Under the pieces are notes generated by a model that ran no database searches, was not told the origin of the DNA, and was given only the letters and a program-made list of their open reading frames with translations. 64,000 nucleotides of DNA from contig NZ_CP084472.1 in NCBI RefSeq assembly GCF_020405225.1, positions 1,984,001 to 2,048,000 of the forward strand, in the 5' to 3' direction. The stretch is from Natrinema sp. DC36. Its GTDB lineage: Archaea; Halobacteriota; Halobacteria; Halobacteriales; Natrialbaceae. The position numbers and the translations under genes were made by a program. The stretch's first letter is position 1. Each line of letters starts with the position of its first letter. Shown here piece by piece: positions 276 through 62,753 of the stretch.

Positions 276-440
276 CTCCCTTCGCTCGTCTTTTGACCGA
301 GCGAACGCATTCAATGCGGACGAGTATCCGGTCTACCGGCTGCTCACTGACTCCGACTGAACGAGGAGAACTCCTCAGAAGCGAAAGTGAACCCCTACGT
401 AGGGATAGAACGTCTAAAGCGTGTGTTTTGAACCTTACTT

Positions 441-510
441 GCTCTCACGCTGCTCACTTTGTTCAAGTCTCAAACGGACGTTACAGATTTCGTCTACTTT
501 GCCGCTTTCG
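441..510 (+). repeat. Dispersed repeat family 2, copy 2
   Basis: The segment reads CTCTCACGCTG, then TTGTTCAAGTCT, then CGTTACAGATTTCGTCTACT, then GCCGCTTTCGG. This matches, block by block, the copies at 1287-1358 and 13589-13658. Confidence 0.5.
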
Positions 511-7430: not shown

Positions 7431-7890
7431 TCAATCGAGATCCGTGTCAGTCGGTAACCGCATGATCGAGAGCCAGAATTGCTCTAACTCCTGTAGCATG
7501 TCGATAAACTCGGCGGGATCAACTGGCTTCGTCAGGAACCCGCTCGCACACAGTTCGTAGGACTTGACGACATCCGTTTCGCTTTCCGAACTCGTGAGGA
7601 TGATTACCGGAATGCGCCTGCGGTTCGAATCCTCGTGAAATTCTGCAAGCACCTCGTCACCATTCTTGCGGGGGAGATTAAGGTCTAACAGCACAAGGTC
7701 GGGGCGCAGTGCGTCAGCGTAGTCATTTCGTTGAAAGAGGAAATTGAGAGGGTCAACACCGTTTTCGACAACGTGGGGTGTGTTCGCTATCTTCCCGTCC
7801 CTGAATGCCTCTCTCGTGAGACGTATGTCGCCAGGATTTCCTCAATGAGAGGATGTCAGCCGGTTCGGCACCCCCATGCTCACCCGTCAT
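7431..7890 (-). pseudogene. Frameshifted response regulator
   Basis: The gene starts with ATG at 7890, overlapping the kinase stop, and reads MTGEHGGAEPADIL before leaving frame. The family sequence resumes two frames away as ENPGDIRLTREAFRDGKIAN and continues through LVLLDLNLPRKNGDEVL to FLTKPVDPAEF. The expected block would be ILLVEDNPGDIRL, as in the protein at 3262. Two single-base losses near 7838-7850 (one on each side of ATTGAGGA) would explain the shift and remove the acidic pocket. An 87-residue piece could still be translated but would lack the first half of the fold. Confidence 0.75.
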
Positions 7891-58453: not shown

Positions 58454-58660
58454 CGGGGCACTACTCCCACCGACGAGAGTACCTCTTGGTTGAAGACGAG
58501 GGGATAGACTCCACCTCTGACTTAAAATACAATCTAGTCATTTATAAGTGTTTGTGCTATGAAGCAATGAGACGCTCGAAAAACAGTACAAATCGTTGCC
58601 TACCAAGAATGGGCAGGGCACTACTCCCGCCCTCGTATGGCCCGCCTCATGGTTGAAGAC
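58454..58660 (+). repeat. Imperfect repeat pair ending in GGTTGAAGAC
   Basis: Units at 58454-58497 and 58614-58660 share GGGCACTACTCCC at the left and GGTTGAAGAC at the right. A third, weaker unit ends at 59170-59179, just before the primase-helicase ATG. Spacing is irregular, so this is not a CRISPR array. Confidence 0.4.
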
Positions 58661-58750: not shown

Positions 58751-59031
58751 TTTACGAGTTTTACGGCAAATTTCTACAGGTGTAAAACGGGAAATCGCAA
58801 GACTGGAAGATGGCTTTTACGGATTTTACGCATTTTACACCTATTTCTACCCTACCACGAATGTGAGAGCCGAAGAGGTAGAACTGTACTGATTCTCACT
58901 ACTTCTACACACATACGTACTGTATCTCATTTTGCCGTAAAATGCGTAAAATCCGTAAAGACCATGCTACTGTATGTCGATTTCAGAGAACTCGATGAAC
59001 GTAAAACGGTATGTCCCAGCGTAAAATTCGC
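58751..59031. repeat. Origin-like iteron region (TTTTACG / CGTAAAA repeats)
   Basis: At least ten copies of TTTACG or its complement CGTAAA lie in 280 bases. A 23-base perfect inverted repeat is formed by 58816-58838 and 58937-58959, each made of three spaced TTTAC/GTAAA units. A second inverted pair is TTTTACGGCAAA at 58759-58770 against TTTGCCGTAAAA at 58931-58942. Further units are near 58782, 58999 and 59020. The region is AT-rich, gene-free and directly upstream of a replication protein gene, as expected of a plasmid origin bound by its own initiator. Confidence 0.65.
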
Positions 59032-59180
59032 GCTGGTAGAACTACTGTGGTTTGCCGAGGCCAACTAATGTCCCTATAGTTGGTTGGAGTCACCAAACAC
59101 TTTTAACATACTGGGGAATACGTAATGGTAAGTGAGGCGCGGCGCGCACTCGCCGCCCAACTGCCTCGTGGTTGAAGACA

Positions 59181-62100
59181 ATGTCCGCACAACAAACCTC
59201 CCTGGGGGACTTCTCTGTCTCTCAGAACACGACAGACGAATCGCGCAACCCTACTAACAACAGCAGCACCGACGCTTCGACCGAACACCGCCTCGTGACT
59301 GACGGCGGTGAGGTCGATCTCGAATTCAACACTGGCGACTTCCGGTACATCCGTATCGCCTCCGACACCAAGCACCCGATTGACAAATGGGGTGGCTACA
59401 GTCAAGATTTCGACGAGGCCGAGCACGTGTACACGCACGAAGAAGTACAGGAGTCATCCCATGACCGCTGGGGTATCGCCGGTATGGACTCGACTGAAAA
59501 CGTCAATGGCGACTTCCATCTGCTGATTTTCGACCTTGACCTGTACAAGACCGACGAATTTGACGCTGACGACGTGCAAGTCACGAACGCGGAAGGCGTC
59601 CCGATGGTCAAGTCGCAAAACGGCGGCGCACACCTGTACTTTGCGCTGCACGACCCAGTTTTGGAATCTGATATTAACCTGAATCATGACTGGATTGATC
59701 TGCGCGGCTCCGCAGTCAAATCCCACGTCGTCGCCCCTGCCGACATTCCAGGGTGCGAAGACAGCACGTACGAGGTGACGAACGACACCACAGTACCCGT
59801 GTTCCTCTCCGTTGGGGAAGTCCTGGATCGTGTCGAGATTGACGGCGAACCGATTGCCGAGCACGACCCGACCAACCCAGTCGATGTTGATTTCGACCGT
59901 GGGGAAGCCCCGGATGAAATGCCGGACTGCTACCACGCAGCGCTGTCGTTCCGTTCCTCTGAAGCGAGGGAGGAGCATCCGAACGCGTTCAAAATCGACA
60001 CGTACGCTGGCCTACTCGGGCTTGCGGCTGGGTACGACGTTGACACGGTTACTGAGGACTTCGGAGAGTACGCGCCGTTCGGTGACTCGACCGAGTATGA
60101 TGAACATAAGACACGTAAGCACCTGACGCGGCTGGTCGAGAAGATGGAGAATGAGGGCATGTGCCCGCCAGCGCTGTCTACGCTGCGAGAGCACGGCATC
60201 CTCGATGTCGACGAAGCGTGTTCGTGCTCAATCGATTACCACGGTAGCACTCCGGGGGATTCGTTTTCCAGCGATGATTCGGGGTTCCACGTCGAGACCG
60301 ACCTGGAACTCCACTTCGGGAGTTACGGTGAATGGATTGAAACAACAGACCCGGACACTGGTGCGACTGACGTCTGGTTCAAGAAAATCACGAACTTCAC
60401 GATTGACCCGAAATCGTTCCTGTATCAAGACGGGGAGCGCCATATTGAACTGGAAGTCAACCCGTCAACGGGCGAGAAATCGTACGAAGAAATCGTTCCT
60501 GCGACAGTATTTAACGACTCTCGCAAATTCCAAAATCACGTTGTGACCGGGATTAGTACCGACTACACCGGTGGCAACAAATACATCGGTGAGCTTCGGA
60601 AACTGATCGCGTCGCAAGATGTTCCTATCCGTACCGGTGTGGACACGATGGGCCGTCACGGTGACGAATTCGTCGTACCGGACGGGTGCCTGACTGCTGA
60701 TGGCTGGACAGACGACCCAGATAACGTCTATCTTGAACAGGGCAACAGTATCGAACGTGCATGGGAACCCTCCCCTGGAGACGATTACGACGCGCAAGAA
60801 ATCGTGGATATCCTGGAACTGGTGACGTCAATGCGGGTCTCTGAACGCTTCCTGCCTGTTCTCTCCTGGTTCTATACGGCACCGCTGAAGCCGCTCGTAA
60901 TGGACTGGGAAGGAGAGTTCAACGGTGTATCGATCACTGGTGAAACTGGGTCTGGGAAGACGCACGCGTTGAAAGACGTGCTGTGGCCGATGGCCGGTCT
61001 GCCTGAAAGTCCAAAGAAGTGTGACTCGACGCAGTTCACGCTGCTTAGTGCGCTGGCAACGACGAACGCAATGCCGGTATGGTTCGACGAGTACAAGCCT
61101 ACAGACATGGAGGACTGGCAGCTGAACAACCTGCATAATTTCTACCGGCTGTCTTCCTCCGGCGGGGCGGACGAGAAAGGTAATTCGGACATGGCCACCG
61201 ACGACTACGAATTGCAGGCTCCAGTTGTGTTCACGGGTGAGCAAGTGATTCAGGGGCCAGCAGAGCAGCGGCGGACTATCATGACGCGGTTCCTCAAAGA
61301 GCCGGTGCAGGATGGGTCTCCGATGAAGCAGGCGTACTGTGAACTTGCTGGAATTGATTACCAGGACACGAATGATGAATGGGTGTACCCTGATGGGTAC
61401 GACCTCGTACAACACTCCGTTGCGTACAACCAGTTCGTTCTCGGCTGTGACGACGACGAATTGCGGTCGTTGTGGCGGGAATCCCAAGAGTACGTCGGTG
61501 AGATATTCAACAAGTACGGTATTGACGGCGTCGCGAATCTGTCTCGTCAGGGTGTTCAGACGGTGCATTTCGGACAGATGCTGTTCCGTCGGTTTGCCGA
61601 GCAGATGGCCGAAGAAGCTGGGGTTGATAGTGTTGACGTGCCGTCTGAAGACGACATTGAAGAAGCAGTCGTGTATATCGCGGAGCAGTTCGGTGCCGAG
61701 CAGGAACGTAAGTCGCACCTTGACCAGTTCCACGAATTGATGTCACGGGTTGCGATGGTCGGTGAACTCGAGCGTGACACGCACTTCACAGTGATTAACG
61801 AAGGGAAGACGAACGAAGCGCTTGCATACCACGTTGGGCAGACGCTCGACGAAATTTCAGAGTATGTGCACCGGCACGGTGCTGGTGGTGCTGACCTGTT
61901 CGACAATCCGTCTGATTACAAAGACCGCCTTGCTGAAGCAGCAGATGACGATGACTCGTACGTGATTACTGACTCGCAGAATTCAACGCCATTGAATCGG
62001 TGTGCGCGCATCGATCCTGATGCTACTGCGGAGCAACTGGATTTTAATCTGCGTGCGTTCGGTCTCGGTGACGAGGAAGACTCTCCAGCCGAGAATCCTG

Positions 62101-62753
62101 AGTCGCTCGAGGCGGTCGCGACGGCTGTTCATGACCTTTCGAATGAAGGGAATCCGTACGTGACGGTGACGGTGAGGGTGAATAACTGGGATACCGATTC
62201 GGAGCACGGCCCAGAGGCACAGGGCGTGATTTCAGACTCGACCGGCACTATCGATATCGTCGATTGGGTTGGGTGCGACCTTGACGGGAAGGCCCCGCTC
62301 GAGGAAGATGAGCGGTACGTACTGGAAGACGTGCGCGTCAGCCCGTACAATGGGTCGCTCCAGCTGGAAATCGTGAAGGGCACGACGAAGGTCGAGAAGA
62401 TTCAGGAAGGCGTCGGTTACACCGGTCATGCTGATGCTGGTAACAATGTAATCTTGACCGCTGTTGCTGATGGTGGCGACACACCTAATTCTGAAGACAC
62501 AGACACCACTGATGAGGATTCCACCGAATCGCAGGGTGATGATGACGAGAGTGTTGAGGAACTCGCTGAGCGTGCACACAGACAGATCTCTGCCCGCTTC
62601 GATGAGGGCGATGACGTGTCCGTTCCGTCGTTCGCCCCGAAGATCGACGCGCACCCGAAGACGATGCTGTTGGCGATGAACGAACTCGAGAGTGATGGTG
62701 TTGTTGAGAATGTCGGTGGGAACGTGTTCCGCTACCTCGGAGGCGATGAGTGA
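59181..62753 (+). CDS. PrimPol-helicase replication protein with OB-fold and winged helix
   Basis: A 1190-residue protein. Residues 50-215 resemble an archaeo-eukaryotic primase/polymerase domain: LLIFDLDLYK with D-x-D at about 116-118, then NGGAHLYFALHDP and DLRGSAVKSHVVAPADIPG. A superfamily-3/AAA-like helicase follows: GETGSGKTHALKD at about 587-599 (Walker A), MPVWFDEYKP at about 631-640 (Walker B), GPAEQRRTIMTRFL as sensor. Residues about 983-1073 look like an RPA-type OB fold (VTVTVRVNNWDTD, DSTGTIDIVDWVG). The end (KIDAHPKTMLLAMNELESDG) is a winged helix. Likely initiator, primase and helicase of the element. ATG 59181 is preferred to an upstream TTG. Confidence 0.85.
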   Translation: MSAQQTSLGDFSVSQNTTDESRNPTNNSSTDASTEHRLVTDGGEVDLEFNTGDFRYIRIASDTKHPIDKWGGYSQDFDEAEHVYTHEEVQESSHDRWGIAGMDSTENVNGDFHLLIFDLDLYKTDEFDADDVQVTNAEGVPMVKSQNGGAHLYFALHDPVLESDINLNHDWIDLRGSAVKSHVVAPADIPGCEDSTYEVTNDTTVPVFLSVGEVLDRVEIDGEPIAEHDPTNPVDVDFDRGEAPDEMPDCYHAALSFRSSEAREEHPNAFKIDTYAGLLGLAAGYDVDTVTEDFGEYAPFGDSTEYDEHKTRKHLTRLVEKMENEGMCPPALSTLREHGILDVDEACSCSIDYHGSTPGDSFSSDDSGFHVETDLELHFGSYGEWIETTDPDTGATDVWFKKITNFTIDPKSFLYQDGERHIELEVNPSTGEKSYEEIVPATVFNDSRKFQNHVVTGISTDYTGGNKYIGELRKLIASQDVPIRTGVDTMGRHGDEFVVPDGCLTADGWTDDPDNVYLEQGNSIERAWEPSPGDDYDAQEIVDILELVTSMRVSERFLPVLSWFYTAPLKPLVMDWEGEFNGVSITGETGSGKTHALKDVLWPMAGLPESPKKCDSTQFTLLSALATTNAMPVWFDEYKPTDMEDWQLNNLHNFYRLSSSGGADEKGNSDMATDDYELQAPVVFTGEQVIQGPAEQRRTIMTRFLKEPVQDGSPMKQAYCELAGIDYQDTNDEWVYPDGYDLVQHSVAYNQFVLGCDDDELRSLWRESQEYVGEIFNKYGIDGVANLSRQGVQTVHFGQMLFRRFAEQMAEEAGVDSVDVPSEDDIEEAVVYIAEQFGAEQERKSHLDQFHELMSRVAMVGELERDTHFTVINEGKTNEALAYHVGQTLDEISEYVHRHGAGGADLFDNPSDYKDRLAEAADDDDSYVITDSQNSTPLNRCARIDPDATAEQLDFNLRAFGLGDEEDSPAENPESLEAVATAVHDLSNEGNPYVTVTVRVNNWDTDSEHGPEAQGVISDSTGTIDIVDWVGCDLDGKAPLEEDERYVLEDVRVSPYNGSLQLEIVKGTTKVEKIQEGVGYTGHADAGNNVILTAVADGGDTPNSEDTDTTDEDSTESQGDDDESVEELAERAHRQISARFDEGDDVSVPSFAPKIDAHPKTMLLAMNELESDGVVENVGGNVFRYLGGDE

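Follow-up and report, generated by a model that had tools for sequence, protein, structure and literature searches.

Haloarchaeal origins of the ORB type, which are used by Orc1/Cdc6 proteins, consist of inverted elements flanking a spacer. In SaPI and PICI origins, two sets of iterons flank a melting region and lie beside the rep gene (PMC6092414, PMC7581432). The SaPI Rep protein binds the iterons located directly downstream of rep with its C-terminal domain, and DUF927 is the helicase type of SaPIbov1 Rep (PMC7581432). For the plasmid pRN1 an element of 100 bp was described as necessary and sufficient in cis together with the replication operon (PMC4234260). Its authors interpreted this element as a stem-loop and stated that pRN1 lacks iterons; the purified pRN1 protein reportedly did not bind the element specifically (PMC4234260). 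The counterpart of the phage BPP-1 element in BIP-1 is likewise described there only as a stem-loop (PMC4234260).

We analyzed a stretch of 64,000 nucleotides from Natrinema sp. DC36 (the window), in which an initial annotation, made from the letters alone, had proposed a block of iterons as an origin candidate. The centre of this block consists of two arms of 23 bases each, which are exact reverse complements and are separated by 98 bases (Table 1). Each arm contains three TTTAC/GTAAA units 9 bp apart, located at 58816, 58825 and 58834 on the plus strand and at 58937, 58946 and 58955 on the minus strand. The coordinates given in the initial annotation all hold. Further units had been noticed around the arms, and five were found there, giving 11 units in 281 bp compared to 0.2 expected from the window-wide rate. 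The best non-overlapping 281-bp bin of the window contains two. The order of the units is a pair, 22 bp, an inverted unit, 34 bp, a triple, the 98-bp spacer, an inverted triple and two further inverted units. A second inverted pair, also part of the initial annotation, is present as 12 exact bases (TTTTACGGCAAA, 58759-58770 versus 58931-58942). The eleven units form a dyad converging on the spacer, with the perfect arms at its core. The symmetry is more extensive than had been noticed and covers 48 bases (58791-58838 versus 58937-58984, 81% complementary). The tandem pattern TTTTACGNNTTTTAC has three matches in the 5.1-Mb genome, all of them inside the block, and the reversed control has none. 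The A+T content of the stretch 58835-58939 is 58% versus 50% in the surroundings; this is no general rule, as only 10 of the 18 loci have a spacer exceeding its surroundings in A+T.

Table 1. Features of the repeat block and the adjoining gene (positions in the window).
Feature	Position	Strand	Basis
Outer left iteron pair (TTTAC at 58751 and 58760, 9 bp apart)	58751..58764	+	unit count
Single inverted iteron (GTAAA)	58782..58786	-	unit count and spacing
Box A, GAAATCGCAAGACTGG	58791..58806	+	matrix score 20.3; copy is among the 12 training sequences
Inner left iteron triple in 9-bp steps, includes the left 23-bp arm (58816-58838)	58815..58838	+	arms, 6-mer scan, unit count
98-bp spacer, candidate melting region	58839..58936	none	arm geometry, A+T content
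Inner right iteron triple, identical with the right 23-bp arm	58937..58959	-	arms, 6-mer scan, unit count
Mirrored box A, degenerate, GAAATCGACATACAGT on the - strand	58969..58984	-	pair score 28.8; inside the 48-bp imperfect dyad
Outer right iterons (GTAAA at 59001 and 59021)	59001..59025	-	unit count
Gene for the 1190-aa replication protein	59181..62753	+	Pfam and profile searches, covariation, structure model

A 17-base repeat of the GCCTCATGGTTGAAGAC type occurs three times (58481-58497, 58644-58660 and 59163-59179), and its last copy directly precedes the start codon of the PrimPol gene. In Natrinema mahii, a comparable block containing a TGGAACGAC..GTCGTTCCA palindrome precedes the PrimPol gene by about 500 bp.

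The block had been reported to precede a PrimPol-helicase gene directly, which is correct: the gene starts 221 bp after the right arm. The encoded protein consists, in this order, of an N-terminal NrS-1-like PrimPol, a DUF927-type ATPase/helicase, a segment at aa 841-963, an RPA-like OB fold (~976-1078) and a C-terminal tail. A profile built from 24 homologues matches primase-polymerase structures of phage NrS-1 (6k9a, E 1.8e-31), and the Pfam NrS-1 domain is found in 9 of the 24. The same profile matches an archaeal SSB/RPA-like OB fold (2kbn, E 1.6e-6); with the window protein alone, replication factor A is matched at E 1.9e-9. The DUF927 match of the window protein is weak (E 0.0012, below the curated cut-off), and seven of the 24 homologues match this domain, the best at E 6.5e-9. 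An archaeal MCM winged helix is matched in the C-terminal tail of three homologues. For the small downstream protein (a 73-aa reading of the 74-residue ORF) no Pfam match was obtained, and its binding to the repeats, suggested in the initial annotation, is without support. Homologues of the replication protein are encoded in 33 of 391 genomes of the class, on a plasmid of N. occultus and in the halovirus CGphi46. No pRN plasmid was detected by tblastn with the window protein as query, and single-protein scans of the genome-contig and viral-contig collections found no homologue. A profile scan of the viral-contig collection detected ten distant relatives, none of which has a tandem-inverted site.

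The initial annotation had held that its proposal would fall if the repeats were not conserved next to homologous genes. This check was run with a motif-free search on 31 loci (647 kb) comprising the window, 28 fetched stretches, CGphi46 and a short contig; periods of 6 to 14 were compared, a site was counted as near if it lay no more than 2.2 kb from the gene, and three dinucleotide shuffles per locus were included. Sites with a 9-bp period were found 15 times near the gene and never farther away. All other periods pooled gave two sites near the gene and two far from it. Tandem-inverted 6-mer sites were absent from the shuffles (three per locus, 31 loci), and a looser spacing rule yielded one weak site in one of 31 shuffles. 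The exact-arm search and the 6-mer scan agree on a place beside the gene, which is upstream in some loci and downstream in others. By scan, the layout is present in 14 of the 31 loci, in one more with an 8-bp period (L041), and by exact arms in another three (L034, L039, L053). Six loci have a weaker array that was recognized only by eye (L045, L047, L049, L050, L056, L062); among these, L050 is without a clear 9-bp tandem and the tandem of L049 is 8 bp. Arrays of other spacing are found in L054 and L055, one contig is too short (L007), and no such array was found in L043, L059, L060 and L061.

The recurring plan is one of 9-bp tandem units in inverted halves, with a spacer of 48-105 bp, adjoining the gene. 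Distances outside the arms also recur: the 22 bp from the second outer unit to the inverted unit are the same in L036 and L037, and the 34 bp from there to the first inner unit are the same in L034, L036, L037 and L052. The array of CGphi46 lies 81 bp after the primase gene, and that of the 12.9-kb plasmid of N. occultus (Natronococcus) is located upstream of the gene. The unit itself is TTTTAC in the window, TTTAAC in L034 and L035, TTTGAC in L036, TGTTAC in L037 and CGphi46, GTTCAC in L046, GTACAC in L051, ATTCCC in L057, TTTGGAC in L048, ACGTCCAAT in L058 and GTGTAGTAA in L044. DNA searches of 28 further genomes of the genus and of the plasmid collection gave nothing that matches the block. 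What is conserved beside homologous genes is the layout, while the sequence of the unit changes.

A second, separate site, box A (AAATCGCNNGACGGC), is constant in sequence and lies between the outer and the inner units; its reader has not been identified. The consensus AAAATCGCAAGACGGC is kept at this place in many loci and mirrored on the other side. For the scoring matrix, 12 left copies served as the training set; the right copies were not part of it and score 14.0-20.9 in L035, L037, L048, L052, L053 and L057. Scans with box-dyad patterns gave 92 loci among the matches listed. For the genome-contig part of the degenerate box scan, 80 of at least 120 stretches were made into loci, and these are mostly chance matches. 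A homologue is encoded in four of the 92 loci among the matches listed, namely L065 (IMG/VR), L086, which is L035 again, L096 (Candidatus Nanosalinarum) and L125 (Halovenus rubra). Three of these four contain iteron dyads versus none of the 88 others among the matches listed; one of the three is L035, and the dyad of L065 has a period of 10.

Three further observations concern box A and the loci found with it. At positions 1099-1279 of L096, Candidatus Nanosalinarum, a lineage of the Nanohaloarchaeota, has the same origin layout together with a 65%-identical homologue, which suggests transfer of the element between Nanohaloarchaeota and haloarchaea. L057 contains a second inverted pair of 17 bp (7635-7803 in gene orientation) with a box A copy at 7766, approximately 2.3 kb upstream of its main array. 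In the window, a lone copy (AAAATCGCAAGACGTG, 1056-1071 on the minus strand, score 19.5) lies close to where the element begins on the left and is not accompanied by iterons.

Which part of the protein might read the units was investigated by a covariation scan of about 35 segments in 20 of the 31 loci; the remaining 11 were dropped (no clear unit, a split or short gene, or absence from alignment A1). The covariation with iteron similarity is highest at aa 860-949, with rho 0.49-0.52. A rho of 0.51-0.53 (p 0.0004-0.0014) was obtained for aa 846-950, and it is still 0.48-0.49 once the signal of the ATPase is removed; the ATPase segment, after removal of the aa 846-950 signal, drops to -0.04 to -0.07. 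These p values are too good, because the segment was picked after a scan of about 35, and with this taken into account the covariation in the alignments is suggestive only. Shorter homologues, which stop at this point, still contain the segment. Of five models computed for aa 841-963, the best (pLDDT 66) has the helix-helix-helix-strand-strand order of a winged helix. A Foldseek comparison of this model with the PDB gave no match at E 0.001, and the predicted winged-helix fold remains unproven. A model of aa 380-1190 was unusable (pLDDT 43). The C-terminal tail had been the first candidate for the iteron reader and was rejected (rho -0.02 in 16 loci, -0.10 in the segment scan).

The pRN1 origin and the proposed equivalent in BPP-1 share the build of the block. 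The pRN1 arms (TTATGTCCATAGTGTCCAACT, units TGTCCATAG-TGTCCAACT) contain TGTCCA twice, 9 bp apart, and are inverted over a spacer, with 21-bp arms around 58 bp compared to 23 and 98 bp in the block. As in the pRN1 family (pRN1, pRN2, pHEN7, pDL10; ORF904-type initiator), the block directly adjoins a PrimPol-helicase gene and has two or three units per arm, 9 bp apart, the units differing between plasmids. The 9-bp tandems of pHEN7, pRN2 and pDL10 were recognized by eye; pIT3 has TGTCCA arrays on one strand. In contrast to the block, no box A or outer units were seen in pRN1. ORF904 combines an AEP PrimPol with a helicase of the SF3 type and a winged helix, whereas the neighbour of the block is of the DUF927 type. 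Judged by the tblastn search and by the profile matches to NrS-1 PrimPol and DUF927, the putative initiator falls outside the ORF904 family. The BPP-1 element follows the primase gene bbp29 and again has inverted arms (22 bp, TTGCCTCGTTTGCCTCGTTTCT), a 9-bp period and a spacer (60 bp); it differs from the block in that BPP-1 is a bacterial phage and no box A was seen. Altogether 22 replicons were scanned: six Sulfolobales plasmids, BPP-1, pHTUR06 and 14 sampled phages and plasmids, the latter hand-picked from two ranked lists and the pRN1 list with their sequence unseen beforehand. Eight of them have a 9-bp period near the gene and none has one at a distance; other periods gave three sites near and one far, and the shuffles gave none. 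Of 15 primase-helicase phages and plasmids fetched beyond the family loci, six have a 9-bp site and nine lack one.

Like the SaPI and PICI origins, the block has two iteron sets around a central region and adjoins the initiator gene, and the DUF927-type match of its protein has a parallel in the DUF927 or D5 helicase of their Rep proteins. The block differs from them in being archaeal, in having an initiator with fused PrimPol and OB fold, in its strict 9-bp period and box A, and in a spacer that is not reliably rich in A+T; we do not file it as a PICI. By analogy, the block would work like the SaPI/PICI and pRN1 origins, replication being untested, and its resemblance to these, not to ORB/Orc1 origins, is our best reading. 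In a literature search, with subscription journals mostly outside its scope, no account of such an origin in haloarchaea came up.

We are confident, without data on replication or binding, that the block (~58751-59031) is the replication origin of a 72.6-kb integrated element and that the adjacent PrimPol-helicase is its initiator. The earlier proposal of an iteron origin with an initiator of its own is supported to this extent by the layout beside homologues. The four loci without an array, the nine primase-helicase phages and plasmids without a 9-bp site and the lack of specific binding reported for pRN1 (PMC4234260) speak against the origin reading. The best reading is an origin of the theta type that the element's own PrimPol-helicase binds and melts; replication, binding and melting are all inferred. 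Copies of the protein would occupy the 9-bp units in each half, two facing helicase rings would assemble around the spacer and melt it, and the fused PrimPol would prime both strands, leading to theta replication. The block could also be a relic, a former origin that is now inactive in an element replicated passively within the chromosome. This is compatible with the origin reading, and the integrated state of the element and the degenerate right copy of box A would fit; we consider it unlikely, as the 1190-aa gene is open, and the eleven units and both perfect 23-bp arms are intact.

A stem-loop or cruciform, as proposed for pRN1, would mean that the initiator sees the DNA structure of the arms and not the sequence of the units. 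A single strand of the block indeed folds far better than shuffles (z -7.1), and mutation 13 of pRN1 was rescued by the symmetric mutation 19, which restored symmetry (PMC4234260). This double mutation fits arm pairing as well and counts against the iteron reading. The linkers between the units match to 93% in mirrored order (17 pairs); however, since non-mirrored linkers also match to 81% (8 pairs), this test does not separate pairing from iterons. Pairing requires neither a fixed 9-bp period nor extra unit copies outside the stem at fixed distances of 22 and 34 bp on both strands, and in L036 the arms differ in their linkers while the cores are kept. We consider recognition of the structure alone improbable. 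Still less probable is an operator or promoter array that controls the PrimPol gene and is not an origin. The block does lie directly upstream of this gene here, and small DNA-binding repressors of such operons are known, for example ORF56 of pRN1, a transcriptional repressor (PMC4234260). But the array is found downstream of the gene in L037, L039, L040, L041, L044, CGphi46, pRN1 and BPP-1, a position that rules it out as the promoter of that gene.

A chromosomal or plasmid Orc1/Cdc6 origin can be practically dismissed: inverted elements around a spacer are typical of ORB origins too, but these have another initiator and other element sequences and spacing than the TTTTAC unit with its 9-bp tandem period, and the layout tracks the PrimPol-helicase gene. 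The initial annotation had excluded the ORB type and had seen no orc1/cdc6 gene, and both statements stand: such a gene is absent from the 64-kb window and so from the neighbourhood of the block, and the nine Cdc6_C matches of the genome lie elsewhere, the nearest about 117 kb past the window end.

With the iteron origin as the preferred reading, a broader conjecture can be put forward, to which we give not quite even chances. The 9-bp iteron dyad around a spacer of 50-105 bp may be a common origin plan of PrimPol and primase-helicase replicons in Archaea and Bacteria, with the period fixed and the unit free; the haloarchaeal unit would be read by aa ~841-963 and box A by something else, and the stem-loop of pRN1 would be an overlooked iteron origin. 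The block offers a testable origin for a family of plasmids, viruses and integrated elements of haloarchaea; the literature searched does not describe how their replication is initiated. It also provides an alternative reading of the published pRN1 origin that links pRN1 to PICI-type origins, and it singles out a segment of the protein whose exchange could alter origin specificity. If true, sequence alone could reveal compact pairs of origin and initiator that differ in specificity, and these could be used for compatible haloarchaeal vectors.

The element that carries the block extends from about position 466 of the window to the equivalent of window position 73051 (C1:2057051); from C1:2057052 onward, four genomes of the genus are again syntenic. 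Genome G393 has the empty site, in which the sequence corresponding to window 303-465 is joined directly to that of C1:2057052; TTGTTCA is common to both ends of the element and the empty site. The G+C content of the element is 0.539 versus 0.611 in the 20-kb flank. A tyrosine integrase gene is located at its end, and a TFB-like gene is also aboard. The GC-skew minimum of the element is at 59810 and is confounded by gene orientation; in four small contigs no clear agreement between GC-skew extremes and array position was found. An exact 18-bp repeat, CGGTACGTACTGGAAGAC, occurs at 62313-62330 in the PrimPol gene and at 10749 of L032 in the integrase gene, and may be due to chance. Beside the replicon, at 34696-57294, the element carries BREX cargo with full-length matches to the models of BrxHII, PglZ, PglX, two BrxC, BrxB and BrxA.
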